A stretch of DNA of 64,000 nt from Dioscorea cayenensis subsp. rotundata (taxonomy: Eukaryota; Streptophyta; Magnoliopsida; Dioscoreales; Dioscoreaceae). Under the pieces are notes generated by a model that was given only the letters and a program-made list of their open reading frames with translations, searched no databases and was not told the origin of the DNA. This document shows positions 18,601-48,400 of the stretch, in pieces. A program made the translations under genes and the position numbers. Where the stretch lies: the NCBI RefSeq assembly GCF_009730915.1, contig NC_052472.1, positions 1,488,001 to 1,552,000 on the forward strand, given 5' to 3'. The number at the start of each line of letters is the position of its first letter. Positions within the stretch are counted from its first letter, which is position 1.

Positions 18601-21600
18601 GGTGGTGTTTCATATGAGCTTAAGGATGCAAAATCTTCAAATGTTGTTGACGATGATGTTGGTGGGATAGCAATTACTTCTGACTGCTTTTCTTCTTCCA
18701 TGATGAGAAAGAGTCATACTGTCCATTATCTTTAGAGTAATGCTATTCATACCGAACAACCTTCTTGAACATACCACTCGAATGACGTGGCATCCTCGCC
18801 ACATAAAAACTTGACTTTCTTTCTTACTTGAAACCTAACTTTCTCTCTCTAAATTAAAAAACCAAGATCCAACCGGTGAGAGGCTCTAATGGTTACGCAC
18901 CGGGATTGGCAGACATGGATGCAATAAAGGTGTTGAGATTGTTGTCGTCGGCTATACTGGCTTTGATGACGGTGGTGAGGAGTGATGATAAGGAGGTTTG
19001 ATGTGCTAGATGACGAGGTTGATTAGTGGATCGGTGGAGGTGGGTGGGAGATACGGTGGCGGTGCCAGAGGAGCTCATCGGCTACACTAAACTGTGTCTG
19101 TGGGTGCTTCGGTTGCTTTGTTTGTGTAATCGTGAATTTATTCATTACGTGTTCAAGGCTTTCGAGGAGCACATGGGCATGTGTCTCCATCGGAGAGATG
19201 GGGTGGAGAAGAAGGGGAAGCGAGCCAAAAAGAACGAGAAGGAAATGAAAAAGATGACGATGTTGTTGTTGAAATAACGGCAAGCTTACATGATGGATCC
19301 TTTTGTGGTGGCCGGAAGAAGAGAAGGACCATGAGAAGAAGAGAATGACGGTGATAATGAGAAGGCAGCACCGGCGGTGGTGATCGGAAATGAGATGGAA
19401 GCAGCTGTGGATGGTGAGAAGAGGACGGTGAGGGATTGAGTGACGTGATGACGTGCGGATGCCAGCACGGATGGATGGCACATCATTTAGGTAGTTTGTT
19501 TGGGAAGATTGTTCGGTATGAATAGCTTTACTCTTATCTTTAATGTTCTTCTCTTTTGTTCCTTCTTCATCAAAAACAACATCTCTACTAACAATTATTC
19601 AGGTCTAATTCAAACCCGAAAAGCTTAAGCTAGTAGAATGAGAGACCAGACTAGTATATTTATACCCATATTTACTAACTTAACCTATGCGGAACTAAAA
19701 GTAACTCTAATACATGTTTTCTTGGCTTTATGGCTATGTTATGTGTTGTAATCTTCAGGAGTTTTGAGGAAGTTTGGGAATAAGAATTCAACTTTTTCTT
19801 TAAATTGTAATTTTTTCTACAAGAGATTTAAAATAATCATCATACAAACATAAATTTTCTTGCTTATTCTCACTTTTTATTTCTTATCTCCATTATCTAT
19901 TGGTCGTTCACTACTTTGGTTATAGATTCTTTCTATACTCTGGCTTTACCAGAATAAAACTTTTCATAATTAGCTGCATTTGACTTTCTATTCTTCCTAT
20001 TAGCTTCTCAATGTACAGTGGAGCATGTTTTGCTCTATGGTTTAGGGATGCCAGTTCTAATTTTGCATTTGTTCTTAGGGTTTTAGAAAATGCATGCAAA
20101 GATGATGAGGAACTTCGTGCGGTGCTTGGTGACAGTATTGGAAACCCAGAACTGATGAGGAAAAGGGTGCGACTGTAGCCTGTTATTAATTTGTGTCATG
20201 ACAACTTTGTGTTTAGTGGAGGCAATATATGATCAAAGTTTTTGTTCTGATTTGCAGATTGAGGAAAGAGTCAGAAAGAAAGGTAGAAATTTTCACAAGT
20301 CAAAAACGGGTTCTGTTCTTTCCTTCAAAGTCAGCTTCAGAGAGTGAGAAATCATTTAAAACCTTCAGATTAGTCGTCTTGTATGATTATCCATGATATA
20401 AAATTCTTTTAATTTCCAAATTCCAATTTTATTTGAGCAAGCAATCTTAAAGCAAAGAAAGAAAAGGGAAGGGAAAAAACTGTCTGATTGCATATTGTAT
20501 TTTTGTTTTCTTTAGCTTCAATCCAATGGGTTCCTATATGTGGTTTGAGCTATTTGGTGCCCCCACAGATCGTGATGTTGATCTCCTTGGTAGTGTAAGT
20601 TCGTCCCAAAAAAGTTCTAGACAATTTCCATGATTTTTGAAGAGTTTACTATATCAGTAATGGTTCTTATTTATGAGTTGTTTTCAGGTCATCCAGGCAT
20701 GGTATGTCTTGGGACGGTTAGGTGCCTTTAACTCTACAAACCTTCAGGTAAAGTAAATGAAAAACAAGGTTTTCTTCTAGTAGCAATTATTATAACAACA
20801 GCATTCTTGTTGCTTGCAAGTTGTTGCCATCATCAAACTCTAAGAACATCAGCTTTTACCATGATAGCATTACACTTTATGAAACAAAGGAATTATTTCT
20901 GTTATCATGCTTATTCAACATTTTCATGCTGGCATAACTTTCAGTTGCCTGTATGTATGGCACCAGCTTCATGTGTTAAGAAATAAATAGGCTTGAACTG
21001 CTGAGCATGGCATGTTGGGTTTTAAAGTCCTTTAATATAATTTTTTTTCTTTTGAACAGAACATTTTCTTTTTTTTTTTCCTCTTATCTGAAGAAGCTAG
21101 TGCGTTTTGTGTGTGTGTGTGTGAAAGAGAGAGAGAGAGATAACTTGCTAGTAGATTGAAGATGTACAAGCTTGATCACTTTCTGTCTTATTGGTTCAAT
21201 TAAGTGCTTCATATTTGCTAAGAAAATACTCTATACATTCGGTGCATCATTTTGCATCAATGTGAGTAAGAAGATTGTCATGCGATCAATAATATCTGTG
21301 ATTCCAAATCATGTAGCTCTCCCCCCTTATGAGACAGCTTTAATTCCTTCTAAAGACCCAATTACTAGAACTAAACTCTATTTCTCGGTAGTCATCATTG
21401 CTAGACCTAGGATAGGAATGCCTTATACGAAATATTTTGTGCTGTGAGGTCTTCCTCATGTATAACATGCATTCCTTGCTCTGTAATGGAACAATGTTGT
21501 TGATAAAATTTATAGGGTATCTTTATAGACTCTAGTAGGAAATCACTATTGATACAATGATGTTAGGCTTATCACTCATACCAACAATGAATTAGGACTT

Positions 21601-23412
21601 CAAAAAGGGCAAGTCTTCGCTAGCAAAGCCATATAAAAGTCAGCCACAGAGCAAACAAATTGTTGGTCATAGGGAAAAAGATAACACCAATAATAATATC
21701 CAAGTCTAGTTTTTATCTTTATGCCGAAACAGATAATTTATTTTTTTTCTCATGATGAAGCTGGCTTTGAGGAGATATGGAGTTGTCAAAGATTTACTTC
21801 ATTGATGTGCAACTTTTCAAATCCGACAGTTCCTTTGGCTTGTTTCATGTTTAGACATTTTGTTTGATCTTTATTTTCTTGTGTGACTGGTTAAGAAAGA
21901 TAATGAACTTGAAAATGCGAGAATGTTCTCTCACTCCATATATGGGAATGCATTCTATTGTTTGTTTCAGTTGGGAAATGTCTGTATGGATTACAATCCT
22001 CTTTATGACTCTGAGAAAGCTGCGAAAGTGATGCCTTCATCATTCCATGATATCGGTGATGTTGAATTCCAAGATAATTGGGGACGCGTCTGGTAATGCA
22101 TTTTTTTATTTGCTGCTTTAGAGTTTATTTCTAATCAGTAAGCTGCATTAGACTTCATAAATTCTCTTTGAATTATTTAAAGTTGTCCTTTCACTACAGG
22201 GTGGACCTTGGAACATCTGATTTCTTCGCTATTGATGTATTGCTCAATAGCCTCACTGCTTTGAGTTCAGAGTAAGTCAAATCAGAAAGTAATCACAATT
22301 AAGTGAATTAACTATTGAAATTTAGAAGTGGATGCTTTCCATTATATTATTTTTGAGCTGAAAATTGATACAAACTATACATTTTTCAGCTTTTCTGAAA
22401 GATTTGTTTGTGATATATTTAGGTGTTAATTGAGTGGTTATATGATGATTTAATTGCATATAGCTCTAGTTATATTAGTCAATCTTAGGATTTGGCCAAA
22501 GACAGCCTTTATAGACACACACACACACACACACACACACATTCATATTTGCAGAATTTACTATGGTATTATGTTTTTAATAGTGGCTAATGCTTCCAAC
22601 TAATAAGCAGCCAAAAATTTTAATAATTTTTTTGTTGTATACTTGGTATTTGAGTAGGGGTTAAAATTGTATGGTTAAGCCAAGATTTTTATATAGAGCT
22701 CCATGCTTTCATTGACATCATTAATTAAATTTAATATGGCAATATAAATTGACTACATTGCAATTACATCCGTCTAGGTTGCGTTTGTGAGATTTTAAAC
22801 TTAGTTGATATTATTAAAAACAGTATGTTTTGTTTAGAGGGTCTATAAAAACTTAGTGTTTAATGTTACATAAATTTAAGGGTGTTTGGCATTATAAGTT
22901 TCTTAGACAAATTGGCCAGGCTTGTCGCCACGAATACATCTTACCATCATCCTTAAATATCAACTTCATTTCGATGCATTTATTACCAACTTGTGACCAT
23001 GTTACTTAGATGCCAAGTATGATGATATTGTTTAAATTTTCAATTTATGTTCTGAAACATACGAAATTCTCTCTACATTATGTCGCTTTTTGTGGCATTC
23101 ATTGTTCTCAATGCCACCAAAATTAAGTTGTGTTAATTTTTAGTCGTCTCCACTTGAATCATATTGCAAAGAACATAAAAGAAAATCTATGGCAAGCGTA
23201 TCATCAAATGTTTCAACAATTTACTTGTATTTTCTTTACAATAAGAACCAATGGGATGCCGAAAATGTTCAGTTGTCTCTAGACTATTTATATATCTATG
23301 TTCTTGCAGATACCTCGGCATTCAACAAGTGATTTTCGGTGGACGTCGCATGGGAGATTGGGAAGACGGCATGACGAATTCAGAATACGGGTACAAGAAT
23401 TTTCAGATATAA
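15694..23412 (+). CDS. DUF3531-family protein, probably plastid-targeted
   Basis: Eight exons: 15694-16019, 20079-20166, 20258-20343, 20516-20594, 20688-20747, 21971-22092, 22200-22271 and 23310-23412. They join in phase to 311 codons with GT-AG introns. The first ~65 residues are rich in Ser/Pro/Lys without acidic residues, like a transit peptide. The conserved region starts with RRLLRVREEKRKREYDR (exon 1). It goes on through ENACKDDEELRAVLGDSIGN (exon 2), WFELFGAPTDRDVDLLGSVI (exons 4-5), DNWGRVWVDLGTSDFFAIDV (exons 6-7) and ends YLGIQQVIFGGRRMGDWEDG (exon 8). This matches the plant/cyanobacterial DUF3531 family; its biochemical role is unknown. Start: ATG at 15694 (15655 or 15697 also possible). 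Intron 1 is 4.06 kb because of transposon insertions. A broken second copy lies at 40859-44254. Confidence 0.9.
18735..19533. mobile_element. Non-autonomous Mutator-type element with GC-rich cargo
   Basis: The terminal inverted repeats are about 30 bp with two mismatches; both ends read GAGTAAxGCTATTCATACCG inward. A perfect 9-bp target duplication TTATCTTTA flanks them (18726-18734 and 19534-19542). The 799-bp element contains no transposase. The GC-rich interior holds an 83-codon plus-strand frame (19026-19277), a feature of Pack-MULEs that carry captured gene pieces. The element splits the copia integrase-end coding sequence, so it inserted after the copia element. Confidence 0.85.
19026..19277 (+). 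other. Frame inside the Mutator-type element (possible captured exon)
   Basis: 83 codons with LIGYTKLCLWVLRLLCLCNR followed by a Lys-rich tail (KKGKRAKKNEKEMKKM). Not recognised. A minus-strand frame of 152 codons overlaps it, so coding status is open. Confidence 0.2.
21092..21141. repeat. (GT)n-(GA)n microsatellite in DUF3531 intron 5
   Basis: A run of GT dinucleotides followed by GA dinucleotides at about 21107-21141. It is intronic and non-coding. Confidence 0.7.
22512..22541. repeat. (CA)n microsatellite in DUF3531 intron 7
   Basis: About 15 uninterrupted CA/AC dinucleotides in the intron before the last exon. Confidence 0.8.
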
Positions 23413-24850
23413 AATATGATCAATGTTGTCTCTCATCCAAGATTCCAAGAAAGGAAATCATGTAATGGCATTACTTCATATGCAAGAGACAATGATGTTC
23501 TTCTTAACAAATGTTCAATTAGTAGAAAATGGTTGTTTGTCACCCTAGAACTTCATGTATACAAATAATAATCACAAGTTTGCTCTATCTAAAGATACAA
23601 GAGTTTTGTGCAGTTTAGCAGAACTTTATGTGGTTGAGCAAACTTGTTTAGAGGTTGTATGCATGTACGCATCTGTTCCCTTTTTATTTATATTACAAGA
23701 TTTAATTATTTAAGCATACATATATCTATTTGACAAAGACAATAAAGGCTACCCCATAAAATAAATGTTAAGGGATAGGTAGGAACAATTATGCATCAAT
23801 TACTGTTATTTATCGACCCTTTAAAAATTTATTAACTCGATTAGATTTTATATGAAGTAATTAGGGTTTTACCATGTGCACACCCACAAATTTTTTTTAG
23901 AAACTAAACCGGGTTAACAAATTCTCCTGTTATGCAACCATCTGAAAAGAAAGAAAATGGCATCTTCTCACATAAACTTAATAAATAATAATTGAATATT
24001 GCTACAATATTGCACAATCCTATCAATCTGTCAGTCTATTGCATTAGGCATTGGGTTTTTGAATAAATATTTAACATATACTTTTTAAAAGTGAATATTA
24101 ATATCAACAAGAAAAAATATTTTTAACTTAAAAAAGTTTTGAATTTGATTAATATAAATTAAATAAAAAGTATGTAAATTGACAAGAAATTTCCCTTGAA
24201 TCCACATCTAAACATCTCCTAAATTTGCGAAGTTCACAAAGCAAGTGGACTCTAAATTCAGTCACTCTGTTCAGAAAAGAATATCATCTTATCCTATGTT
24301 GTCAATTCAAGCTTAAAACAATGAAAGACAGAGCCAGCTTGAAAAGACAAAATAAGAACATTAAAGAATGGATCTGATTATAACATGATACATACTCTCC
24401 AGAAATTAAATTCATGAACTTGAGAATGTGATTTAGATGCTGAGATTTATTGCTTTGGGTATATATATATATATATATATTGAAATAAATGTGGATAAAC
24501 TACAGTTTTATTGAAAATAACAAAATAAAACAGAGTAGTCCTCTCACCCGAGGTGAGGAACAAAACAAAGTACAATAAAACAAGAAAAAAACCAAAGATA
24601 AATACTGGACAGACAAAAAACACCGTCTATGACTTCAGACATGTGGTTTTACATTACATAAACAACAACTACATATTGTTTTGCAACAACACTTTTGACA
24701 TGACATAAACAACAGCTACAAATTAATTTGCAACTATACATCTCAAGAAAAACAAGCAAACAAACAAACACACAATAAGAGATTTTAATTTAACTTTCTC
24801 ATCTCCCGGCCTTCAGCCCAAGGGTGAGAAATTTCCAGATTATAATCATC
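23413..24850. other. Intergenic 3' flank shared by DUF3531 and the PrimPol exon copy
   Basis: Non-coding, AT-rich, with an (AT)n run at about 24462-24480. Its counterpart is 44255-45481. No other gene seen. Confidence 0.6.
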
Positions 24851-24937
24851 TCATACATCAGCTACGCTTTCCTTGACTTGTGAAACAATTTCCTCAACAT
24901 TCACCCACCAGCCTAAATCTTCATTGTCATCGTCATC
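24851..24937 (-). pseudogene. Orphan copy of the last PrimPol exon
   Basis: An open frame of 28 codons plus stop follows a good acceptor (ATCACAG) and reads DDDDNEDLGWWVNVEEIV then SQVKESVADV. It is the counterpart of 45482-45568, differing at four bases and three residues. No upstream PrimPol exons accompany it here; the duplication ends at about 25057. It is therefore an isolated exon, probably unused, unless some transcript reads across the NLR block. Confidence 0.75.
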
Positions 24938-25056
24938 CTGTGATCCATGAGACATAGTTCAGAATTGGCTTGAGAATTTGTTAATCAAATGACTCAACTA
25001 AGATACTAATGTTTATGTGATTGAAACAGAAGCATGATGGTATTCCTTGCAATTGC

Positions 25057-25480
25057 TTAGGTAGTGTTTGGGGAAACCATTACTTACACATTCCCATGCC
25101 CTTGTTTGGATATGTTTTTTTAGAGGGTTATCATTATCCCTGTGGGGGTTAATGGAGGGGGTCACCATTAACCCCCATGATGTGAACCATTCTCGGAATT
25201 ACCATTATGACCTTACCATTATGACCTTGTGAAACATAAAAAAATACATATAAAAAATTAATAGTTATTTGAAATTAATTTCTAATTAAATATTAATTAA
25301 TAATAATGAAATAAATATTTATGTTTTAATTATTTTATAAATAATAATTATTGAAATAAATATTAGAAGAAATATATTAAAAAATTTTAAGTACGGAATG
25401 TAATTAAAAATTATTAAAAATTATGTCCCCAACTTGCCTTTTCCAAAATAAACAACACGGTGTGTAAAATAATTCAATAA
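25057..25480. mobile_element. Possible truncated PIF/Harbinger-type element
   Basis: TTAGGTAGTGTTTGGGG at 25057 has the TTA target sequence and a terminal repeat like that of the MITE at 1642. Runs such as GGGGGTTAATGGAGGGGGTC and its inverse ACCATTAACCCCC follow. I could not find the matching right end, so the boundary is approximate. Confidence 0.35.
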
Positions 25481-26583
25481 ACAGATTTCCATCAAAAGAT
25501 ACATGCCCAAGCGTCATTTGTGACTCCATTTTTATACAAGAAAATTAAAAAAAAAAATCATGCAATCCAAACTATATATATGTTTTGGCCACAATTCACA
25601 CAAAAAAACACAATAACAATAAATAAACATCAACCAAAGCCAATATAAAGCTCAGCAAGCATGAATTCTACAATGCAACATGAGTGTTGAGATCGATCAT
25701 GCAGTTAGATCACACACACACACACCAGGACAAAAAGCATAAACAAAAAAAGAAAGAGAGTATTAAAATCCAGGTGAAACAGTTCATAAAACCAAAGAGC
25801 AACAATATAAACACAATAAATAAATACTAACTTCACTCCACCTAATCATAACAGACTCATCAATCCAACAAAACCCGAGAGTTATCACAAACATTACTTT
25901 CACCCAAAACAAAACAATTTCACGCAAGAACTTAAGACAAGAGTTCTTGATCCTGACCAAAATCAGTCTTGAACTCAAAAAGTTCAGGAGCCCTATCCAA
26001 AATCCATATATATCAACTATGTTTTCATATATAGCAACTTGTTATCAATCCCTAGAATCCATACTTCAGTCAGAAAAAAACCACGCACCAGGAAGGGATT
26101 CTCCTATAAACATCATAACATGAGCTAAGATATGCCCTAATTCCATGACTCAAATTTGTGACAAATCTAATAATACCAGCCACTCAAAATACAGAGAGGG
26201 ACCGGACCCTTGCTGAACAGATACTGCCAGAACAAGAAATTTTGTTCATCAACACTCTTCTGATCCATAAAAAGACAATGCTTGCTTGATTTCTTGCCTT
26301 CTGATCACCTAAAGAAAGTTGAGATTGATCAACATCTCATTAGAATTTAAAACAAGACTTCACAGAATCTTAAGAAAAAGATAACAGTATATTCAATAAG
26401 GAAAAAGATACAAACTAAAACCATTATGAAACTCAAAAGAAATCATGACAAGAGTGCAAAAGATAACAGTATATTCATAAGAATTCAAACTTTGGATTAA
26501 ATGAAATGCAAGAAGTATCAGAGAAACCGGATAAAACAAACAAAATAATGTATATATATATATATGAGTTCTTGCAAATGAAG
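25481..26583. other. 3' flank of the NLR gene
   Basis: AT-rich sequence with short CA and TA runs. A few 60-codon frames show no domain. Probably 3' UTR and intergenic. Confidence 0.45.
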
Positions 26584-29500
26584 TCAGCTCCTCACAATCT
26601 TAGGAACACATAGTGAAGCATTGCCAGTATCTGATTCTAGGAGGCCCGGGCATTGTTGAACATGTAGCGAAGTTAGGGAACAGAGCATATGCAACCCACC
26701 CAATGAAGTCAGCTCCTCACAATCTTTTAGTGTCAAACTTTCAATGGAAGTCAAGTGTGCCAGCTCATCAGCTGATGGGAAGGAAGTCATATGCTTGAGC
26801 TTCTGCAATGACAAATGTTTGAGCCTGGTGAGACCTCTCAGGCACCTACTGATCCTGTGCTTGGTCATGAGCTCACAATCTGTGATGGCTAGATCAATAA
26901 GAGACTTTGGTAGGAGTGCACTAGCAACGCTACTGCTGCCTTCGTCTCCATCTTCATCTTCAGAAGACGGGATCAATGCCAACAAGTTGGGGCATGAGCA
27001 GATGTTAAACACTTTGAGTGATGGGAGTACCCTCAGATCCCCGAGTGATGTGAGCATCACACAGTTCTCAATTCGAAGCTCCTGAAGCCGTGTGAGTTGG
27101 CTTAGTAACTCTCCCGAGGGAAGTGTTGTTATGCAGTAGCAACCAGCAAGAACAAGGTGAGTGAGCAACATCAACTTCCTAATGCAATTGAGCAGCTCGC
27201 TATCATCCACAAAGCAGTTGCCAAGATGGAGCTGCTGGAGACTTGAAGGCAGTGGTTGAGTCTTTCCATCAATGGAGTACTGCGTTTTGGATGTCAGCTT
27301 CTCAAGGATGGCATCATGTTTCCTTGATAAACTCCAGGACTGGAGACTTGCCACGAGTGTTGATGATGATGATGATGATGGTTCTAGAGTAAAACCCCTG
27401 GCTTCCAAGGACTGCTTTACTCTTGTAAGTTCTGCCATTGCCCTGTCATTGTTCTTAAGAGATTCTGTGATTCTGACTTCTTCCTCAGTCAATGGTGATG
27501 GTCCCCTGTCAAAGCCAGCCATCATTTCTTGTGCATAGCCCTTTACAAGGTCTGCCTCAGTTAAGATAGCCAATAAACAACAGCCTGATAGCAAAAGTTT
27601 CTCCAGATTTAATGGGAGGGGAGGGAGGTAGCGGAGTTTAAAACAATCCCTAAGCTCAAGCTGACGGAGTTGCGGAATGCACTGCCCGATTAGTGGTAGG
27701 GTACACGCCCACTGGTTGAGGATAAGAACTTGCAGGCATGGAAGAGAATGCCGTGAAAGTTGCATCCAAATTGGAGGCCTCTCACCTGCATAATGGCAGA
27801 TCTCAAGGTCATTGATCTGATGAGGTGGTTGGAGTTCATCAAGCACATTCTCCGCCGGATCACTAGTAATAGCACTACAATAGCTGTTCCATTCAAGACA
27901 CAGTTTATAGAGGGATGCCTTCTTCTTCAAATTTGCACCGGCGGCCATTTTGCTCCTGTGCACATTTTCAAGATTGCTAATGCGAAGCTCACCACCAAGC
28001 TTGTTCAATTTCTTCAACTCTCCAATCTTGTGTCCTTTTGTCTTTGTGACGCTGAATGCAGGCAACTGCTGGAGCGCGGTCAGTTCACCCATTTTACCAA
28101 ACCTGTCAAGTGTTGCAGCATCCGACATTATTCGTCTCAAGTTGATCAGCTTGCTGAGACTGCCAGGCATAATATCGGCTTTGAAATTCATCAGATCCAA
28201 GTACAGCAGGTGATATAGTCTACAGACCGATCGAGGTAACCTTTTCACTTGCAAGTCGGAAAGGTCCAGCAGCCTTAAGTGTTGCAGTTCACCGATCGAT
28301 CCAGGTAGTCGATCAATGTGACATGCTGCCAAACGCAGTACCCGTAACCTCTTCGTCTTCTTCAATATCTTGCCGAGAAGGTAACTGTTTCCAATGCCTG
28401 ATGACTTGCATGTGACAACAAGAGTTCGCAGGTTTTTCAGTCTGCAAATATTATTCCTGTACTCCATAAGTATGTCCATGTCAATTCGAAGATGCCTAAT
28501 AGTGGATGGAATTTCTCTTATTGTGTCATGCTCAATTCGAGTGCATACATCCTTCGTAACAAAGTCTGCGACATCATGCATCATATCATCCAGTACAAAT
28601 AAACCATCATCTCTGCATTGAAAGAAAGACCTTGACACCAGCTCATTCAAATAGGCACCGGCAACATCTTCCGCTGTTAATCCGTTCTTTTCTTCAGCCA
28701 AATCAATTATTAAACCTTCTCCGATCCATGAATGAATCAAGTAATCCCGAGACAGAGCCATGCCTTTGGGAAATATGCTGTGGTGAGCGACACACCGTTG
28801 CAGATGTTGGGGCAGACGTTGAAAAGATACCAACTGGATCCTTATGACATCTTCGAATGAGTTGTCGCTCCACAAAATCTCCTTCCATTCTTCAGCTTCA
28901 AGCATTTGGCTTAGCATCCCTGCCACCGCAAAGACAGCCAAGGGTAGCCCACTGCATCTGGCAATTATCTTCTCAGCTACAATTTTTTTGCCTATCTCCA
29001 GAATCAGATCACGATCATCTGGTGTTTGGATATCAGCAACACCAAACACAAGTCTGTTGAAGAGTGCAAAACAGGCTTCATCTTCCAAACCCCGGAGAAC
29101 AACAGGATCCATGGTGCATGTAAACATCTTGGTCACCAATTTCATGGGGCTTGTGACTAAAATCCTGCTTCCGAGCTGGCCATGTCTCAGAGGGGCAAGG
29201 ACCCTCATCCATCTAACTTTGTTAGCAAGTTCTGTGGATTTCTCATCATACCAGACATCATCCAAAACAATCAAAAACTTTTTCTTTCTAATATGTTCGC
29301 TGAGTAGTTTTTGGAGCTCGACCAAGTTATTGGTGTCAGGGCGGGCTTGCTTAGAAGCTAATTGTATCATGCCAGTGGTTATACTGACCTCATCGAAATC
29401 CTCAGGTACATGAACCCACAACCTCAGATCAAAATGCTGACTGATTTCTGAGCGATGATACACAGATTTGGCGAGAACAGTCTTGCCAACTCCTTCGACC

Positions 29501-35566: not shown

Positions 35567-35576
35567 AGAAGAGGAT

Positions 35577-35657
35577 CCGCCTTAACTGGGAGGCAACAAG
35601 TTCAGAGTGTGTTCATCAACCTTCAAGACCCGCCTGAACTGGGAGGCAACAAGTTCA
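35577..35657. repeat. Short direct repeat at the internal LINE deletion junction
   Basis: CCGCCTTAACTGGGAGGCAAC (35577 onward) is repeated about 51 bp later as CCGCCTGAACTGGGAGGCAAC. It lies where ORF1-like sequence meets the RT region, so it may mark the deletion junction. Confidence 0.6.
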
Positions 35658-37923
35658 TGGATCTCTCCCCCCCAGATCTCCATAGGAAGTGGTAAATCTG
35701 GATCCTGACTGCAGCGGTGGAGAGCTTTTCAAAGGCTGGTTGGAAACTCTCCGATACAAGGGGAGAGTTGAAGAATTCTACCCACCACTGTCCAAGGCCC
35801 GCCCCATAAAAGTCGATCCTGCATTTCAGAAGATTCGCATTTAATAAAATAGAAACCATTAGGTAAATCCGCGACAGTGAAAGAACCAATTCCTCTCCAA
35901 GCATCAGCCAGTGCAAGCTTTGCTTGGTCAAGAGGGAGCGTTTTGCCCAGAAACTTAGCATAAAGGGAAGTCTGCAGCTATTTTTTGCATGGAGCCAAAG
36001 ATCATTGTTGATAGTGATGAAGGCTGAAGACGAGTTTTTAATTCTCTCAAAGTGATCCTTTCGAAGATGAGGCGGATGCTCAAGGAGATCAGCTTTTGGT
36101 CCAACAATGACGACGTTTGCCCAGGAAACTCCAGGAGAGAGTCATGGCAGGGAGGGAGAGGAGATTTTGGCCCCAGGGGGCCATCTAGGAGACTCGGAGA
36201 AAAAGGAGGTGGAGGTTTGGTGAGTCCCAGGATAGTGTATGAGAAAGAGGGCATACCTTTAGCGGCAAGGGAGGCTGGAGTAATGTTGAAGGATATTCGT
36301 GACCCGCAAGACTGCCACAGAATTTGGAGTAACATCATTCAGGAAGCTACTAGGAAATCATTGACATGGAGCTACTGGATGCTGCCCCAACATATACAGC
36401 AATGCATTGTGCACCTAAGGTTGTACCCGAAAGGTTACAAGTTTGACATTACTACTTTGGTTCTTTCATGGATGGCAGTTGATGTTATCATTCACCAAGA
36501 GAGAAGTGAAAACCTCAAGGCCAAGGGGCGAGAGTTCTTCAGTGAAAACCTTGAGGCCAAGGGACGTAAGTACTTCTACAGCTTGGTGAAAAGATCTTTC
36601 TTCCAAAGACAAGAATCGTAGGGGATGAGAACAAAGAGATTCCCTTAACGGCAAAACATCTGAGCATTAAGGCAAACTACCATAATCAGTTCAATGAAAA
36701 AAATTTCAAACTGAAGAACCTCCGGACATTGTTCATTGCCTACAACAGTTCAAACAATTTAGTGTTGCAGTTCAAATAATTCAGTTGATCATGATGTTCT
36801 TGAGGCCATTTTAAAGAAGATGAAGAGGCTGCGGGTGTTGTGTTTGCCATCCTGTGTTATAAACAAGTTGCCTGATTTAGTTGGTGTGTCAAAGCATTTG
36901 CGTTTCCTAGATCTCATGAACTCCTCAGTCAGCCAACTACCAAAATCGATCTACAGTGTCTATCACCTATGGTATTTGAATTTAAACAACTGCAAGCTGT
37001 ACCTAAAGATCTGAGCAAGCTTATCAAACTACAGTATATGCTGTGTGATGGCATAACCCTCTCGATGATTTTGCACATTGGTAGACTAACTTTACTCTGA
37101 GAACTGAAGGAGTTCAATGTCAAGAAGATGAAAATGCACAATTTAGGCCAGCTCAAAAACATGGACAATCTTAAAGGGGGACTTCATATAAAAAATATGG
37201 AGGCTGTAGGCCATGCCAATGAGGCTGAGGAAGTAATGTTAAAAAGAAAAACTCAGCTCAGAGAATTTGTTCTTGAATGGTCCAATACTCAAACAGCTGC
37301 TGTTCCAGAGCATGTATTTGAAAGGCTGGAACCTCATGATCAAATTACTAAGCTGACAGTCAGAGGCTATGGCGGTGCCCAATCTCCTAGTTGGATGTGG
37401 AAACAAAACTGCAAACTAGAAACCCTGGTGCTTGACAACTGCTCCAAATGGTGTACCCTTCCACGACTTGGCGTGTTTATACTAATCTTAAGAAACTAGT
37501 GTTGTCTGGCTGTGGTATTGAAAACTCCGCTCCGGCCAGATGTCTCCAAAACCTCACTTCCCTAACTCATCTGGAGTTATCAGAATGCGCGAGCATAACT
37601 TTTCTCCCTTCGGAGGAGGTGATGAGGCGCTTGAGATCACTTGAAAGTGTGATTCTTTGCGGTTGTGTTAATTTGGAGTCTGTTGGGGGTTTACAAGTCC
37701 TAGCACCAACTGATGGCTCCGGGCCTCTTGAAACCTTGCAATCTAGGATTGCCAAAGACTTCAAGATCATTTGCATCATGATCTCGAACTTCTCATGCAG
37801 GTTTGGTTTATCTTGTATGCAAAGAGCTTTGTTTTGTGTATTATTATTATTTTTTAATGTGGATGTATTAATTTGGCATTGGCAATGCTCTTCTGATGAT
37901 TTTTTTTTTTTGTATTTTCTGCT

Positions 37924-38415
37924 TGTTGGAAATATAGTACCACATCAGTTGTGTAATAGAGGTGTAATGGGTTTATATATAGGTATAGGGGTTGAGCTAC
38001 TTAGTCTTGAGACTTTTTGGGGTAAGACTCCTAAGCCCATATAGAGCCCATTTAAAGGCCACTAGTACCAAAATATAAAATCTAACATGGTATCAGAGCA
38101 ATATAGTGGACCCCAATATATATTTACACAAATGGTGTACAAGTCCATGTGTGTAGGACCTCTGAGACACAAAGTAGTGTACAAGTTCTGGTAAACATAC
38201 CTCTGGTGTACAAGTCTGAATAAGTTTGACCGAGTTGAACTTGAGGGAGGGTGTTGGAAATATAGTACCACATCGGTTGTGTAATAAAAGTGTAATGGGT
38301 TTATATATAAGTGTAGGGGTTGAGCCACTAAGTCTTGAGACTTTTTGGTGTAAGGCCCCTATGCCCATATAGAGCCCAAATAGGGCCCACTAGTACTAAA
38401 ATATAAAATCTAACA
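37924..38415 (+). mobile_element. TRIM (terminal-repeat retrotransposon in miniature)
   Basis: Complete 492-bp element. Two 164-bp LTRs (37924-38087 and 38252-38415) both run from TGTTGGAAATATAG to AAATCTAACA and are about 90% identical by eye. The left LTR is followed at once by TGGTATCAGAGCA (38088-38100), the primer binding site for initiator Met-tRNA. The internal region is only 164 bp, non-coding, and ends in a polypurine tract TTGAGGGAGGG (38241-38251) before the right LTR. Flanking target duplication CTGCT at 37919-37923 and 38416-38420. It depends on proteins made elsewhere. Confidence 0.95.
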
Positions 38416-38420
38416 CTGCT

Positions 38421-39519
38421 GACAGATCCAAGTCTGATCATGTTATTCTGGCCAAGAATCTGGTGTTATTGCCGAGGAATGACAAGCCCAAAGAAGGAAC
38501 TGGAGAAGCTGTTGACATATAACATGGGTTGAATTCCCGCTGCCGAGTATGTCCATTTTTGCCCACATGCATTGTAAGCTTCTTAATGGTTTTTATTGTT
38601 TTGCCTAATGGGCTTTGTGATCATTTTTTTCTTTTTGTGTTCGATGGGGCATGTTCTTTTTTATAGCTACTTCCGTCTTTATGATTGCCTCAGTGGTATA
38701 ATTTGAATCAGTAAGTACTTGACTGTCAACATCAATGATCTTTATTTGTCATTTCACTATTGATGTTTTTTACACTTATGGATGTTTTCTGAATATTTAT
38801 CTGTTGTTATTGTTCGCTTCAATGATTATGTTAAGGAGGATGAAACTGGTAAATTCTTATCCTCAGTGTCATTAGTTGAAGTGTTCTGTTTTTCAGCTAT
38901 TGCCTCTTTTTCTGCTGCCTTTTCTTTGATTTGTGTGTCTATGGTGTCTTTGATCTGTGTGTCAAAATTCTTCATTTGTCACATTATTGCCATCAATAAC
39001 GCCATTGGCAACAATTGTCTCACTGACAGCTGCTGATTCAGTTGAGCATTTTGCTCTATTTGTCTCTTCATTTCCGAACTCTGCAGTCATTGCATTTTTA
39101 TCAGACACTTCCTGGTTGTGCTATTTTGCCTCAGAATTATATTCTTTTACAAAATTTTGACCTGGTTCTATCAACACAGTTTCTACCGCTGATTCTTCTT
39201 CCAATGATTATACTTCAAGATCATTTTCTGTCTTCTGGTTGCTTGTTGATTATACACTTACAGTATCACCCTCTTTAACCTGAAGCACCAACAAAGGCAC
39301 TGATTTAGTGTTCTAGAAAATGATTATGGACTAACTTGATCAATAAATATGCTATAGTCTCCTCAATATCCTGATTTGTTACCAGCAGTGTATCTTGGGT
39401 CTTAGTTCCAGTTTCTTTTTTCTTTTTCTTTTTTTTTTTCTTTTTGTGGGATAAAATGACCATTTTAGTTGGAAAATGCAGTCACCTAAGCTCCTAAGCA
39501 ACATAAAACACAAAACAGT
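38421..39519. other. Spacer with coding-like minus-strand remnants
   Basis: On the minus strand, about 39180-38830 reads Glu/Asn/Ser-rich peptide in more than one frame (for example AEFGNEETNRAKCSTESAAV), interrupted by stops and a frameshift. It may be a decayed exon of an acidic protein that I do not recognise. The first 120 bp could be 3' sequence of the NLR pseudogene. Confidence 0.3.
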
Positions 39520-40487
39520 TGAAGAGAGCAAATCAGGCATCTTCTTCCAAACCCCCGAGAACAACAGGATCAGTGGTACATGTAAACATCTTGGCCACCA
39601 ATTTCATGGTGCTTGTGACCAAAATCCTGCTCCCGGGATGATCATGTCTCAAAGGGGCAAGGACTCTCATCCATCTAACTTTGTTTGCCAATTCTGTGGA
39701 TTTCTCATCATACCAGACATCATCCAAGACAAGCAAAAACTTTTTCTCTCTAATAAGTTCGCTGAGTAGTTTTTGGAGCTCGTCCAAGTTCTTGGTGTCA
39801 GGGCGGGCTTGCTTGGAAGGTAATTGTATCATGCTAGTGGTTATACTGACCTCATCAAAATCCTCAGGTACATGAACCCACAACCTCAGATCAAATGCTG
39901 ACTGATTTCTGAGTGATGATACACAGATTTGGCGAAAACAGTCTTGCCAACTCCTTCGACACCAATAATAGGAAGGATTTCATAATTCTGCTCATCCTCA
40001 TCAGCATCACTGATTGGTCTTCGATTACTTGTAGGCATTGGATGCGTGGTCAGAAGCTTTGTTACATGTTTTTTCTCTTTATCTCTGCCAAACACTTCCT
40101 CATATAAGTGAGAGGTCTTGACTACACGAGCATAAGCATCAAACCTGTCTTCACCGATATCATTGAGACGAGAGATACAATCATCTGCAAAGTAAGAGAC
40201 CTGCTCCAACTGCTTGACAACTTCTTCCAGCCTTGATGAGTGACGAACATGAAATTACAGGAGTAAAAACAACACACACATGGGTGTTGTTTGCGCAGCA
40301 CTTGTTGTTCCAGATGTCTGTACTTTCACTCATCAAGAACATCCTCAGCTTCGCAGATAACATTATCGATCAACCTCAGGATAATGCTCAACGACATGTC
40401 TTGAGCTCCAGGACATATCTCAGCTACTTCTGTGATGGCTCTGATTTTGGGAAGGTTTTCAGTCTTTAAATTTTGCACCATGGTTTG
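39520..40487 (-). pseudogene. N-terminal NLR fragment (partial copy of the intact CNL)
   Basis: Matches the intact NLR gene from about residue 41 to 362 with high nucleotide similarity. It includes the P-loop GVEGVGKTVFAKS, the kinase-2 segment KKFLLVLDDVWYDEKSTELA and GSRILVTSTMKLVAKMFT. It lacks the start codon region and everything after RNBS-C. One base deleted near 39893 (ATCAAATGC against ATCAAAATGC) breaks the frame, and the segment before about 40210 is also shifted. It is a truncated duplicate. Confidence 0.9.
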
Positions 40488-40858
40488 TGTTAGTGTTTGA
40501 TTGAAGTATGTTGTTGTTGCTGATAGGAAGAGAAGATTGAGAAGAATGTGTTGCTGTGAAGATTGACAGTGATTTCAGAGATTTCAGAATGGAATGTCTT
40601 CAGAGGGTAAAGTCGTCTTTTCAGATATTCAAAAGTCTGTTAAAACAGTTATGTTTTGGCTGGAAACAAATCAAGGGCTGTGATTTAAGTTGATCAAAGA
40701 AAGAGTGTGAGTTCTAGGCAGCTCAGCTTGATAGAGAAATGGATTAAAGGGATCAACGGCTGAGATGAGTTAATCAGTGTGATGAAGCTTAGTTCGAGGC
40801 AAGTCGAGCTACGCGTGTTATGTAACTAAGCTAGTCCATTTCGTTTTGGGTACCCAAG
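40488..40858. other. Junction between the NLR fragment and the DUF3531 copy
   Basis: No gene. The homology to the NLR stops just beyond GCACCATGGTTTG, and homology to DUF3531 intron 1 starts at 40859. Confidence 0.5.
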
Positions 40859-41513
40859 TTTAGCTGCATTTGACTCTCTATTCTTCCTATTAGCTTCTCA
40901 AGTTTAGCTGCATGCTTTGCTCTATGGTTTAGGGATGCCAGTTCTAATTTTGCAGTTGTTCTTAATTAGAGTTTTAGAAAATGCACGCAAAAATGATCGA
41001 TGAGGAATTTCGTGCAGTGCTTGGTGACAGTATTGGAAACCCAGAACTGATGAGGAAAAGGGTGTGACTGTAGGCTATTCTTAATTTATGTCATGACAAC
41101 TTTGTGTTTAGTGGAGGCAATATATGATCAAAGTTTTTGTTCTGATTTGCAGATTGAGGAAAGAGTCAGAAAGAAAGGTAGAAATTTTCACAAGTCAAAA
41201 ACCGGGTTCTGTTCTTTCCTTCAAAGTCAGCTTCAGAGAGTGAGAAATCATTACTAACTTCATTGAATATCAACTTCATTTCGATGCATTTATTACCAAC
41301 TTGTTACTTTGATGCCAAGTATAATGATAAAGCATTGGGAGACATTTCTCTTGCTGTAAGAAAGATGATATTGTTTATATTTTCAATTCATGTCTTGAAA
41401 CATATGAAATTCTCACTGCATTATGTCCCTTTTTTGTAGCATTCATTGTTCTCAATGCCACCGAAATTAAGTTATGCTGATGTTTAGTTGTCTCCACTTG
41501 AATCATGCCAAAG

Positions 41514-41516
<3 letters not shown>

Positions 41517-41572
<56 letters not shown>
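41517..41572. repeat. (AT)n microsatellite
   Basis: About 28 uninterrupted AT units inside the copy of DUF3531 intron 7. It is absent from copy A, so it expanded after duplication. Read in frame it makes an Ile-Tyr run fused to the LINE frame. Confidence 0.9.
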
Positions 41573-41575
<3 letters not shown>

Positions 41576-41728
41576 GAGCCAATCACCGGAGTATCATCAA
41601 TTGTTTCAACAATTTACTTGTATTTTCTTTACAATAAGATCCAATGGGATGCCGAAATGTTCCGTTGTCTCTAGAGTATTTATATATCTATGTTCTTGCA
41701 GATACCTCGGCATTCAACAAGTGATTTT

Positions 41729-43991
41729 CCCTCGCATCTGGATCTCTTACATTAAGGCTTGTCTTGAAGCTACCTCCTTTTCTATTCTCTTGAATGGGAA
41801 GCCTTCCCGTTGGTTCAGACCCTCCCGTGGGGTCAGACAAGGGGATCCTCTTTCACCCTACATTTTCATTTTGGTTGCTCAAAATCTTACTGCTATTATG
41901 AATCATGCCCAATCCCTTGGTCTTATCCCAGGTTACTCTAATTTATTGACTCATAACTTCAATCACCTTATGTATGCTGATGATCTGATTTTGATCACCA
42001 CTGCCTCTAGAAAGGTTGCCAGAAATATTGTTACTTGCTTAAATCTCTATGCTCAACTCTCTGGCCAGGTTCCGAATAAGTCTAAATCTGAGGTTTTCCT
42101 TCCTCATTGGTTTAACAAATGGGTTTCTACTCGTATCTGCTCTATTCTCAAATTTAAGTTAGGCAAATCTCCTTTTACTTACTTGGGTGTGCTCATTTCT
42201 CCTAAACGTCTTGTTGTTGCTCATTTTGATTTCATGGTTAACCGGCTTAATGCTTCTGTAGCCAGTTGGGGTAAATCCAAAATTTCTAAGGCTGGTAAGT
42301 CAGTCTTGATTAACAGCATTCTTATGTCCACCCCTATTTATTATCTTGCGGTGTACCCCATTCCTGACAATGTCCTTAATAAGTTGTCCATGATTGCTAG
42401 AAAATTCCTATGGGCTAACTATGATCATGGTCAAGGGATGCCTATGGTGAATTGGGATACTATCACTCTGAATAAGTCTGAGGGGGGTTTAGGCATTCGA
42501 CATTTACTTAAAGTGAAGCACTCGCTCATGGCAAAGAATCTTTTTAACTTTCTTAATAAACATGATGCTCTCTGGGTGGAAATCTTACATTTAAAATATG
42601 GGGATCATAATTTTTGAACTATGAAACCTCCGCAGAACTGCTCGGCTTTTTTCCGTGGCCTTTGCGGCAATGCCAATGTTCTTAAACCTTTCTTGTGGAT
42701 TAACTGCCTTAACCCAACTATTACTTCCTTTTTACATCATCCTTGGATTTTTGACATTCCTATTGCATTTAAACCGGTTTTCTTTAACATGGATCTGCCT
42801 GTTGAGGATCTTCGCATTAGTGACTGTTTAATTAATTGTAATTGGAATGTGACAGCTCTTAATCTCATGTTTGGTTCCAATTGGAACTCTCCAATCTTGT
42901 CTCATGGTAAGATTAGTGTTGATGGCGTTTCTCACTGGGTTTGGTTTCCGGAATCTCATGGTACTAAACTTTCTTCTAGCATCTACAAGTTTCTTAGCAA
43001 GAACCCATGCTGTGGGCAGCAGTGGATTGGCTGGTCTAATATATGGAAACTTTGTGTTGCTCCTAAAACTAAAACCTTCATCTGGTTGTTGATGCATAAC
43101 AAAATTAAAACTTATGATTTTATGTATCGGCTAAACCTTGGTCCTCCTGACCCCTGTGTGTTTTGTGGTTTGGTTTTAGAAAGCTCTGATCATCTTTTTA
43201 AATATTGCCATGTTAGTGTTCGGGTTTGGAAGACTGTTGAAAATCTCGCTGATATTACTGTCAATCTTCTCAATTTGGTTGATGATGGTGTTTGGCTTGA
43301 TTTTAGTTCCAATGGTAATTCTTTATTTTTGGCTTCTATTATTGCTGCTACTCTCTGGCAAATTTGGAAGAGCAGATGTAACTTGATATTTAGGCAGGAT
43401 TCCTTGGATATCTCCAAGATGGCTAATCTGGTGATTCTCCATGTTAAGGATTTTGCTGTCAGCTCTAATGGTCATCTGATGCGGAATTATATGATGAACA
43501 ACAGACCTTACCCTGGTGCTTTAGGTGTTTTCTCTGCTGCGGCTTGGAACATTACTACAGGTAAGGGTGGTTTGGGCTTCATGGCTATCAATTCTAATGT
43601 CACTGTGTGCTGTGCAGGCTTTTGCCCTTCTGGTCTGGCCGATGGTGTTGATATGAACTTGAAGGCTCTTTGCTGGGCTCTGGATTATATCATTATCTCA
43701 AGGGAGTGCTGTTCCAACATCTTCATCAGCTCTGAGGACCTTTGGATGAAGATTTGCAGTAACGAGGGCCTAATTTCTTGGCGGCAGGATAGATCCTTGG
43801 ATTGTCTGCGCCGGCTTCTTCTTCAGTTGAATCAGCCCCGGATTGATGCTATTCCTCATTACTGGAATCGGGTTGCCGCGGCTTTGGCTGGCCATGGGAT
43901 GCATGCTTCTCAACTTTCACTCTTTCATATGGGTTTGGAGAAGCCAAAATGGCTGATGAAATTATCTCATCAAGCTGGGTTTGCTATTTAG
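41729..43991 (+). pseudogene. LINE ORF2 C-terminal part with one in-frame stop
   Basis: A nearly open frame. The RT palm reads SRGVRQGDPLSPYIFILVAQ and LMYADDLILITTASR; the thumb has YLGVLISPKRL; then SEGGLGIRHL. A zf-RVT domain follows (WKLCVAPKTKTFIWLLMHNK, PCVFCGLVLESSDHLFKYCH), and an RNase H-like tail (AAAWNITTGKGGLGFMAINS). The only break in 2.26 kb is a TGA at 42615-42617; the same frame continues to 43991. It looks young, but the 5' truncation makes it inactive. Confidence 0.88.
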
Positions 43992-44165
43992 TTTCTGTTT
44001 GTCTCTTGTTGTTTAGTTTGAACTTTGTTTTTCTCCTGTCTTTCTGTTCTGTTTTTTTGTTTATTTGTTTATTTGGTGGTCTGTTCCTGTCTGTTTGTTG
44101 AACCTTTTATTTTTTTTTATTAATAAAATAGCTACCCTGGTGGCTCTTTCCCTCAAAAAAAAAAA
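41729..44165 (+). mobile_element. 5'-truncated L1-type LINE in the DUF3531 copy
   Basis: A 2.4-kb plus-strand LINE ends in a poly(A) run (44155-44165) and has a 13-bp target duplication AACAAGTGATTTT (41716-41728 and 44166-44178). It begins within the reverse transcriptase coding region and lacks ORF1, the endonuclease and the RT N-terminal part. Protein similarity to the LINE at 32663 is only moderate, so the two belong to different families. Confidence 0.93.
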
Positions 44166-44254
44166 AACAAGTGATTTTCAGTGGACGTTGCATGGGAGAT
44201 TGGGAAGACAGCATGACGAATTCAGAATACGGGTACAAGAATTTTCAGATATAA

Positions 44255-45481
44255 AATATGATAAATGTTGTCTCTCATCCAAGATTCCAAGAAAGGAAAT
44301 CATGTAATGGCATTACTTCATATGCAAGAGACAATGATGTTCTTCTTAACAAATGTTCAATTAGTAGAAAATGGTTGTTTGTCACCCTAGAACTTCATGT
44401 ATACAAATAATAATCACAAGTTTGCTCTATCTAAAGATACAAGAGTTTTGTGCAGTTTAGTAGAACTTTATCTGGTTGAGCAAACTTGTTTGGAGGTTGT
44501 CTGTACCCATCTGTTCCTCCTTTTTATTTTTTACAAGATTTAATTATATATATATATATATATTTGACAAAGGTACATATATTTGACAAAAGCAAGAAAT
44601 GTTGTATCATAAAAGAACTATAAAAGGATAAGTAAGTACAATGATACATTAATTACTGTAGTTTATTAATCTGCTACAGATTTATTAACTCAATCAGATG
44701 TCACATGAAGCAATTAAAGTTTTACTATATGCACACGCACAAGATTTTTCAGAAACCTAATTGAACTAATAAGCCTCTCTGTCATGTAACCCTTTGGAAA
44801 GAAAAGAAATGACATCCTCTTGCAAATACTCAATAAACAATAAATAAATACTACTATCAATCTAGAGATTCGACTCTAGATTTGTTTATGCAACACTCAA
44901 ATAACAATCCACTACGCTAGACAGTGGTTGTTTAAATACTAGCGTAGTGATTGTTTAAATGAATATTCGATATGTATTTTTTGAAAGCAAATATTGATAT
45001 CAACGAAAAAAAAATAGATTTTTAACTTTAAAAATATTTAATTTTGACTAATATAAATTAAATCAAAAGTGTGTAAATTGATAAGAAATTTCCCTTGAAC
45101 CCACATCTAAACATCTCCTAAATTTGCATAGTTCACAAAGCAAGTGGACTCTGAATTCAGTCTCTGTTCAGAACATTAAAACAATGAAAGACAGTGCCAG
45201 CTTGAAAGACAAAATAAGAACATTAAAAGAATGGATCTGATGATAACATGATACAGAGTCTCCAGAAAGTAAATTCATGAACTTGGGAATGAGATTTACA
45301 TGCTGAGATTTTTCGCCTTCGGTATACATTACATAAAGTTATAAACAACAGCTACAGATTGTTTTGCAACAACACTTCTCAAGAAAACAAACAAACAAAC
45401 ACACAATAAGAGATTTTAATTTGCCTCTCATCTCCCGGCCTTCAGCCCCCAAGTTCGAGAAATTTCCAGATCATAATCAGC
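44255..45481. other. 3' flank between the DUF3531 copy and PrimPol
   Basis: Matches 23413-24850. Contains an (AT)n run at about 44545-44562. No gene. Confidence 0.6.
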
Positions 45482-48400
45482 TCATACATCAACTACGGTT
45501 TCCTCGACTTGTGAAACAATTTCCTCAACATTCACCCACCAGCCTAAATCTTCGTTGTCATCGTCATCCTGTGATCCATGGGACATAATTCAGAATTGGC
45601 TTGAAATTTTGTTAATCAAATGACTCAATTAAGATGCTAATGTTTATGTGATTGAAACAAGCATGATGGTATTCCCTGCAACTGCTTAATGATAAGTTTT
45701 TACCATAACTTGTTTCTAAATGTTCAAATTTGTATTTGTCATACACTCATAAATCCACATTGTCAAGTTTTGCAAGACACATGTTGACTAAATTCAAACC
45801 CTAAAAACTTAAATCGATTGGGTGAGAGACCCGGAACCAATATATTTAAATTCAAATTTACTATGACAAACTGACGTGAGATTATTGGTTACTCTGACCA
45901 GGCAAAAAACAGAGGAAAAATGTAAAATACTAATTAAAAGTGAAAATTGACAGAATGAAAAAGTAATATACAGAGACCGGTACAATTTTTGCCAGTGTAT
46001 CATGACAGAATTTACTATTAGGGTGAGTGATTCAGAGGAAAACATAAATGTAATTTGAATATGGTTTACATCATGAGAAATTGACCACCAGTAACCCAAA
46101 GCGTTCGACCTAAATAAGCTGATTACCTAGGCCTAAATGTGATGAAAAGTTGTAAAAATGTTGGCATGAATAAACCGTACTTTCTATTAAGATCATAAGA
46201 CACACATGATAAATAAATCATATAGAGATTTCAGGAGTAATTATTCACAAGAAATTCTAGAGGGTTGGTAATGATCATGAGTTTCTTATAAGAGTCAGCT
46301 ATGTTATAGCAGATGTAGCCGGTTAGTGTTGGTGTTTGATATGCAAGAAAAGATGAAGAAAAAAAAAAGGAAATGGAAAAGGATGCAAGAAATAAAATTG
46401 CATTAAATAGCTGAGCACAAGGATCATGTGTTCAAACCAATTTGTCGAACTCTGGTAAACTTTCCCAGTTCTCAATGCAGTCTGCATATTGCATTGCTTT
46501 CTGCCACCAGCCAGTATCCTTCTTAGTGCTTTCAGTAGTAGAAACACTATTATCCTTTGAACTTTGCTCCATGTTAACCTCAGCCACTTGGGAATCAAAA
46601 TTAACATCCATCATCTCATAATTTTCTGGATGTATTGAATCAAGCACTCCCATACAATTCAGCGTTATATCAGAAGGCAAAGGGCGTAATGGAGAACGAT
46701 AACCTGATGCAATCATTTGCAGAAAGAAAATTAATGACAAGAGAAATGCCAAAAAAAGGCATGTAACCGTATTTTGTCTCTTCACACACCTCTGCAATCA
46801 GGATCATAACATTTCTGGTAATAGCCAGCAACTCGAAAATCAACAATGTACATCACTGAAACAGAAATATATAGTGGTGATTAGTGACCTAGAAATGTGA
46901 AACAAGAGTAAAGAGGGGCATCTTGTGATAAATTTTGAATTACATGTTGAGTTGCATCCAGAAAATAAGAAAGCTAAAATCCAAACTTTAACCCACTGGT
47001 GACTGTACCATATATTATAAGCGATAACACCTTACATAATAATAACTCTAAACAATCTTGATATTACATTAGCTAGCATTGAATGGAAAGCCGATTTCAT
47101 AACCATCTATACACAAGATTTAGCAAATTTCAACAGACAGAAATTTTCGTATGCACTATGTGAACTATCGGCATCAATCTGTGTAGTTGCCCGTCGCACT
47201 TTCTACAATCAGAGCAGCAGCTAAACATTATCAAAACCATTTCAGGTAGGTTACATTGTTTTTACTTCTCTATTAAGAAAGTCAAGCATAGTGAGAATGA
47301 TTAACATTGCCATCCATTGTCATCATTCTGACAAGCTCATGTTGCATCTCCACAATTTTCACACCATCAATTTGCATCTTCTTTTAATATGCACAAACAC
47401 GTAGCTAGCTCTCAATGAGTGAACATTTAGTTCATGAATAGCAAAATATAGCTCAGGTGGCAAAACTGTTAGAATATATAGAAACTTTTCACTTTTTAGA
47501 TCCTCTCTTGCAGCAGAGTTGGTACATACATTAACAGTAAAATTTCATAAAACTGAGGGAAATGAAAGATTTTGATAACAGATCTGTGCTGACAGGATTC
47601 TCCCCCAAAATTTAGTTGAATGTTTTGCAAATCCAATATGCTGCTTCTTTTGAATTAAAAATTGATTGACCAACCTTCAATTACCACATTCAACATCCAC
47701 AAATCATCAATAAATAGAGCAATAAAAATGGTCAGTTAAAATTGATTTGAAAAGGTATGGCATACACGCCAACAATTCCAATTTAATGTTTCTTTATTTT
47801 TTTGGGTACAGTTTACAGAAGCTTCTGCTCCGGTTTCATCTGTAAATTCACTAGGGTAGGCAGTTTAGCTTCAACCAGATGAAACAACAAGAGATGAAAT
47901 GATGAAGCCAAAGACAGATACGAACATGTAAAGTATCAAATTGTTGGTTAAGATCATCAAATATCAACCAGAAAACCAATTTCTCACATAAGTCTATAAT
48001 AATCATGCCCCACAACAACTTCAACTCATAATAACCAAGAAAAATGATTTGAATATTTGGCAACTTTTACTTATTAAGGAGTCCAAAGGACAAAACAAGA
48101 AGTCTAATTCAGTCAAACCATAAGAATCAATCAGTAAAAAACCTTGCTATCAATATTGCATCAAATAATCAAGAAAACTTTGCTAATTGCTAAGCTATAT
48201 ATGTATTTTATTGAGAAAAAGCTGCATGCAATTAAACAATAAAATTTTAAATTCAAAAATAAAGAAGGAAAACAGATTTTTTTTACCATGATTACTTTTA
48301 TGTTCTCTTCCGATTCTTTCACAATATCGACTCCTTGACATACTGTAGATCATCAGATTGTAAGCCGAGAACCAATACCAACTACGAATTTTTCCTGGAA

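Follow-up and report, generated by a model that had tools for sequence, protein, structure and literature searches.

A resistance-gene block between two copies of a DUF3531-PrimPol segment in Dioscorea cayenensis subsp. rotundata

A 64,000-nucleotide stretch of the Dioscorea cayenensis subsp. rotundata genome (assembly GCF_009730915.1, contig NC_052472.1, here C2:1488001-1552000; the window), which carries plant genes, contains two copies of a segment, S, that holds the 3' part of the gene DUF3531 and the last exon of its neighbour PrimPol. The copies share one orientation and are separated by 15.8 kb of other sequence, comprising one intact nucleotide-binding leucine-rich repeat (NLR) gene, one NLR pseudogene, one NLR fragment and transposon debris. 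Relatives of these NLR genes lie elsewhere in the genome, truncated transposons form both edges of the block, and its right junction can be placed to the base. We lean towards an origin by end-joined insertion of an NLR-transposon block with a target duplication of ~5 kb, in which the duplicated S would represent the target locus and not the donor.

Duplicated segment and ancestral gene order

Comparison of the window with itself by blastn resolved S into four collinear direct matches with 74-93% identity and E values of at most 8e-91 in every case (Table 1). The initial annotation had placed a same-orientation duplication at 19969-25057 and 40859-45690, which the self-comparison confirms with edges differing by at most 2 bases. 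Its description of S as DUF3531 exons 2-8 applies to copy A, but copy B has just exons 2, 3 and 8.

In copy A, DUF3531 is an intact 8-exon gene encoding 259 amino acids (PF12049, E 3e-53), with GT donors at exons 1-7 and AG acceptors at exons 2-8. The gene model and the open 259-residue frame agree with the earlier view that this copy combines an intact DUF3531 with an orphan PrimPol exon. The converse state proposed for copy B, a PrimPol gene beside a wrecked DUF3531, was also found: exons 4-7 are deleted (2.6 kb, equivalent to 20357-22940 of copy A), insertions of four bases in exon 2 and of one base in exon 3 are present, and a fragment of a long interspersed nuclear element (LINE) interrupts exon 8 between perfect 13-base copies of its target repeat ACAAGTGATTTTC (41717-41729 and 44167-44179). 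The joined C-terminal exon pieces of PrimPol matched PF03121 with an E value of 6e-14, and the PrimPol fragment had no match among solved structures up to E 1. A search of the plant's own genome with the PF03121 profile gave no match, but 14 controls gave none either, and introns are taken to be the cause.

In each copy, DUF3531 exon 8 and the last PrimPol exon stand tail to tail, and the outer flanks complement one another, copy A running leftward into DUF3531 exon 1 and copy B rightward into PrimPol. This arrangement of exons and flanks argues strongly that the ancestral order was DUF3531-PrimPol, tail to tail, as had been suggested beforehand.

Genome searches were made against 584,211,761 bases in 2249 contigs and scored the top candidates only, namely the best 40 of 372 for an S query (22900-25060) and the best 40 of 857 for the NLR block. 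With the S query, S was found at two places only, and the other 37 of the 41 listed matches were confined to repeat stretches at ~23716-23977 and 24460-24644. The DUF3531 side of a query for intron 1 (40480-40960) matched only copy A and itself. No third copy of S and no empty allele was seen in these searches, which at the DNA level covered S outside 20061-22899; a family search located DUF3531 exons in copy A and, in diverged form, at a single site on C20. This paralogue (C20:30106001-30116000, minus strand) has 27-52% amino acid identity by exon, and the C-terminal PrimPol exon pieces had no match within the surrounding 30 kb.

Table 1 Features of the duplicated segment and the intervening block (positions in the window)
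Feature	Position	Strand	Remarks
DUF3531 exon 1	15850-16019	+	Outside S; GT donor, open frame; joins copy A exons 2-8
Copy A of S	19970-25059	+	DUF3531 intron 1 to exon 8, PrimPol last exon, part of PrimPol last intron
Copy B of S	40860-45688	+	DUF3531 exons 2, 3, 8 (pseudogene), 3' flank, PrimPol last exon
S match 1	19970-20356 / 40860-41252		92.7% identity (blastn)
S match 2	22941-23337 / 41251-41729		73.7% identity (blastn)
S match 3	23324-24466 / 44166-45329		78.8% identity (blastn)
S match 4	24705-25059 / 45341-45688		89.9% identity (blastn)
Dispersed short repeat	24460-24644		Matches many chromosomes; from 24467 onward in copy A only
Orphan PrimPol last coding exon, copy A	24854-24937	-	Still open; 89% amino acid identity to copy B
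MITE-like element, left part	25060-25423	+	Multicopy; 364 bases, begins at TTA; right end not found
NLR1	26584-30144	-	Intact single-exon CC-NB-ARC-LRR (CNL), 1186 amino acids
NLR2	31496-37911 (limits approximate)	+	Pseudogene with NB-ARC, WH and LRR pieces; LINE-interrupted
LINE inside NLR2	32660-36245	-	3.6 kb
TRIM element	37924-38415	+	NLR2 3' region; 164-base LTRs, CTGCT target repeat
NLR_B	39497-40487	-	~1-kb 5' fragment of NLR pseudogene
LTR of LTR-retrotransposon	40488-40861	+	First 374 bases; inserted in NLR_B, cut off at copy B junction
LINE fragment (RVT_1, zf-RVT)	41730-44166	+	Splits DUF3531 exon 8 of copy B
PrimPol last coding exon, copy B	45485-45568	-	Attached to PrimPol gene
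Further PrimPol exons	~46435-46710, 46788-46857, 48288-48347	-	Right of copy B
CC, coiled coil; LTR, long terminal repeat; MITE, miniature inverted-repeat transposable element; TRIM, terminal-repeat retrotransposon in miniature.

The NLR block, its relatives and its edges

NLR1 carries NB-ARC (E 5e-38), Rx_N (2e-6), WH (3e-16) and R13L1 LRR (3e-36) domains in one open frame. NLR2 stands head-to-head with it, and the LINE that interrupts NLR2 is bounded by a target repeat AGAGGGCATACC at 32648-32659 and 36246-36257. The term NLR cluster used in the initial annotation is thus right in that NLRs are present between the copies, but the block holds just one intact CNL besides the pseudogene and the ~1-kb fragment.

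Among the candidates scored, the nearest DNA relatives of NLR1 are C17:19209-22845 and C17:52953-54609, whereas the nearest relative of NLR2 is at C20:6.785-6.790 Mb, its 5' region matching C20:6.787-6.790 Mb. The match to C20 includes non-coding sequence upstream of NLR2, with 80% identity at 30795-31191 and 86% at 31199-31497. For NLR1, the match to the C17 relatives consists of coding sequence and 49 bp of 3' flank only, too little shared flank to point to the immediate donor. The Kimura two-parameter distance (K80) from NLR_B is 0.083 to the second C17 gene (C17:53616-54556) and 0.121 to NLR1, making the C17 gene the closest of the three compared; it follows that NLR_B did not arise simply by local copying of NLR1, and derivation of both from the same local duplication was rejected. 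As judged from these sequence relationships, the block mixes two NLR lineages. No DNA-level match to it was detected within 10 kb to the left or 30 kb to the right of the window. A further piece inside the block, 26149-26381, matches three other places in the genome.

The left edge of the block, J1, lies at ~25423/25424 in the MITE-like element, which is probably PIF/Harbinger-like. In all 11 related loci examined (of 201 matches), the first alignment stops at 25423; beyond this point the window diverges, and many copies of the element go on into further repeat units. The right end of copy A at 25059 need not be the original breakpoint, because the multicopy element starts there at TTA and copy B reads through.

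The right edge, J2, lies at 40860-40861, where the truncated LTR meets DUF3531 intron 1 with a 2-base microhomology (TT). None of 38 matches at other loci passes 40861, and S starts at 40860. Eight of the nine LTR relatives examined (L013-L020) read AAGTTT followed by CTATG, whereas copy B reads AAGTTT followed by AGCTG, the TT being common with copy A; for the ninth, L021, the alignment covers the first 204 bases only. The stretch 40488-40861 had also been considered as an NLR promoter, a candidate dropped once its LTR nature was recognized: it starts with TG, a purine-rich tract precedes three of the nine relatives (L013, L015, L019), and TGGTATCAGAGC, or one change from it, follows four (L014, L016, L017, L020), both of which we take to be LTR-retrotransposon marks. 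At 40487/40488 the LTR sits a few bases before an NLR_B ATG whose counterpart in NLR1 is an internal methionine, so the LTR has cut off the start of NLR_B.

A 15-base repeat, CAAGTTTAGCTGCAT, occurs at 40855-40869, across J2, and again at 40899-40913, 44 bases apart; copy A carries different bases at the second position. When the local 200 bases were shuffled 1000 times under a Markov model, a close repeat of this length was never obtained. The repeat is suggestive of template switching at the J2 join.

Origin of the arrangement

Since the edges of the block are of unrelated kinds, a truncated MITE-like element on the left and a truncated LTR on the right, the arrangement can be explained without invoking homologous recombination between like repeats, and together with the microhomology these unlike edges favour end-joining over homologous exchange. 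Matching ends of one transposon around the block, as expected for Pack-MULE, Helitron or LTR capture, were not encountered, Helitron ends not having been searched for.

The end-joined insertion that we tentatively prefer would have begun with a break in the ancestral DUF3531-PrimPol pair, repair of which captured an NLR-plus-transposon block foreign to the locus. One broken end, in or beside the last intron of PrimPol, would have joined NLR-bearing DNA, while the other end of that DNA, cut within the LTR, joined DUF3531 intron 1. The second join would represent re-entry on a sister or homologous chromosome at a point ~5 kb upstream of the break, through microhomology end-joining and template switching, and that one repair could yield the order S, NLR block, S. 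Copy A would thereby retain the whole of DUF3531 and copy B PrimPol, so that both genes could have survived throughout. Their redundant halves could later change freely, copy B by its 2.6-kb deletion and LINE and copy A by its short repeat. The single event, the inter-chromatid donor and the repair pathway are inferred, a single repair being simplest because a later insertion would have had to hit the tandem junction exactly.

Several observations weigh against this model. The left edge falls within an element that copy B is without, and J1 may consequently not be original, reflecting either another haplotype or a later insertion accompanied by a second deletion. A locus with the donor order NLR1-NLR2-NLR_B was not found among the best candidates scored in the genome searches. 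As for the 15-base repeat at J2, an equally long close repeat is present in 6 of 319 real 200-base windows, which makes the templated repeat no more than suggestive. Divergence between the copies of S, described below, is uneven, a pattern unaccounted for by one event and subsequent plain drift.

Tandem duplication alone, which the initial annotation took to have left a roughly 16-kb resistance-gene block between the copies, does not account for the locus. The head-to-tail adjacency of a plain tandem duplication is absent, the 15.8 kb of other sequence intervening; the nearest NLR kin among the candidates scored are on C17 and C20, with no DNA match to the block in the 10 kb left or 30 kb right of the window, and the edges are truncated transposons. 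A two-step origin, in which S was duplicated in tandem and the NLR block was then inserted between the copies as an 'interruptor' in the tandem repeat, fits the geometry, and the high divergence in parts of S could indicate an older duplication. It is nevertheless unlikely: at J2 the LTR is joined directly to the first base of S, so the second insertion would need to have hit the tandem junction precisely, and the best 40 of 372 candidates contained no S sequence beyond the two copies.

Circle integration, in which NLR DNA carrying a stray fragment of S recombined with a single target S, would produce the same final geometry. Woodhouse, Pedersen and Freeling (2010; PMC2869330) propose this model for transposed genes, and a TIR-NBS-LRR gene is among those they list as repeat-flanked. 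We regard it as improbable here, as it requires a third, donor S beside the NLRs; none was found in the parts searched, though such a copy could have been lost. A larger tandem unit comprising PrimPol and downstream NLRs, followed by loss of the PrimPol gene beside copy A and of NLRs on the far side of copy B, seems slightly less probable still. It would account for the end of S in copy A and for the truncated element at 25423, but it calls for two further large deletions, and no match to the block was present in the 30 kb right of the window or listed elsewhere on C2 among the best 40 of 857 candidates. An assembly artefact, through uncollapsed haplotypes or a false join, might be suspected from the number of contigs and from the repeats at both block edges, but is highly improbable given that the window contains no N, that a LINE with target repeats, a 2.6-kb deletion and indels distinguish the copies, that their outer flanks differ, and that those parts of S used as queries map to two genomic places.

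NLR genes move between chromosomes, and the locus was compared with published accounts of such movement. Woodhouse, Pedersen and Freeling (2010) report that direct repeats often flank genes that have transposed in Arabidopsis, and that these repeats are for the most part genic and present at the target locus, with lengths of 30-550 bp in Tables 4 and 5, one of the genes being the TIR-NBS-LRR gene AT5G58120 (80 bp); tandem repeats, circle integration and long target-site duplications were weighed as explanations, and parents were sought there among unlinked relatives with 50 bp or more of shared non-coding sequence at 75% identity or above (PMC2869330). As in those cases, direct repeats flank the moved genes on both sides, resistance-type genes are among the genes moved, and the repeats are genic and probably belong to the target locus. 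Unlike those tabulated, the repeats here are ~5 kb long, and the inserted DNA comprises several genes and has truncated transposons at its ends. The locus is probably a further, longer member of the class of transposed genes with flanking target repeats.

Gene movement by double-strand-break repair with filler DNA, credited to Wicker, Buchmann and Keller (2010) in the account consulted (PMC3445842), is similar in that genic DNA comes from elsewhere and the target is duplicated, and the junction microhomology and templated bases fit. The junction mark of this process is found at J2 as the 2-base microhomology and the 15-base repeat, the latter to be read against the equally long repeats in the control windows. 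In barley, NBS-LRR and other arms-race genes are described, in the part of that study consulted (PMC12573847), as dispersing and then expanding locally. The long-distance dispersal of resistance genes to new sites is shared with the present locus; there, however, the arms-race gene is later found in tandem arrays, whereas here the target is duplicated and not the NLR. A narrow literature search returned no published account of the DUF3531-PrimPol locus.

At this locus the scar is so long that the former gene order can be read from it, together with the exact base of the right junction and the degeneration of the two spare halves. It illustrates how a housekeeping pair can receive resistance genes between its members and still retain an intact DUF3531 and an attached PrimPol. 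A more speculative extension, which we consider doubtful, is that a break at a DNA transposon on one homologue was repaired in one step by capture of NLR DNA and re-entry into the other homologue 5 kb upstream, so that the duplicated 3' ends protected both housekeeping genes; such self-insuring insertions could generally seed NLR clusters without fitness cost.

Divergence between the copies and other features

Between copies A and B, K80 ranges from 0.013 to 0.33 along S. It is 0.013 in the DUF3531 3' untranslated region, 0.037 in the left non-coding part, 0.083 in the non-coding part right of the repeat stretch, 0.334 in the repeat stretch itself (23650-24183) and 0.292 in part of intron 7 (22995-23208), the last value being partly alignment error. 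Excluding three odd stretches, the non-coding part of S gives 0.051 (standard error, SE, 0.007). The longest runs of identity span 198 sites (across the copy B deletion) and 197 sites, against a maximum of 115 in 2000 permutations. Because this control assumes the average divergence, the two divergent stretches supply part of the signal, and there is some alignment error in intron 7.

The interval 23650-24183 of copy A differs from ~44490-45050 of copy B by 26%, whereas its flanks differ by 2-4%. Within it, 23716-23977 is a dispersed repeat, copy A being 69-76% like copies elsewhere and ~74% like copy B, and one of the two copies may have been converted by a distant member of the family. Dating by exon 8, which the initial annotation had proposed for its 'dated' route of NLR entry, was rejected in view of this spread: because K80 is uneven along S, exon 8 alone would mislead as a clock, and single-exon divergence is a poor clock for such scars in general. 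The LTRs of the TRIM element differ by 0.113 (SE 0.028), and as rates may differ, the K80 values fit either order of TRIM insertion and duplication. No calendar date is justified without a rate for the species.

Right of the PrimPol exons, 54784-60723 contains a DUF659 transposase-like element, hAT-like with a BED-type finger by reading of the frames. By the same reading a copia-like element is nested within it, in which 57479-58054 is without a Pfam match. Two 174-base repeats (56659-56832 and 60342-60515) show no difference from each other, and the nested insertion therefore looks young. Left of DUF3531 exon 1, 13020-15456 is repeat-rich with internal tandem copies and is 87% identical to C2:1578740-1581176, ~78 kb away. 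The segment 53419-54579 is 86% identical to C2:1563493-1564666, to the right of the window.

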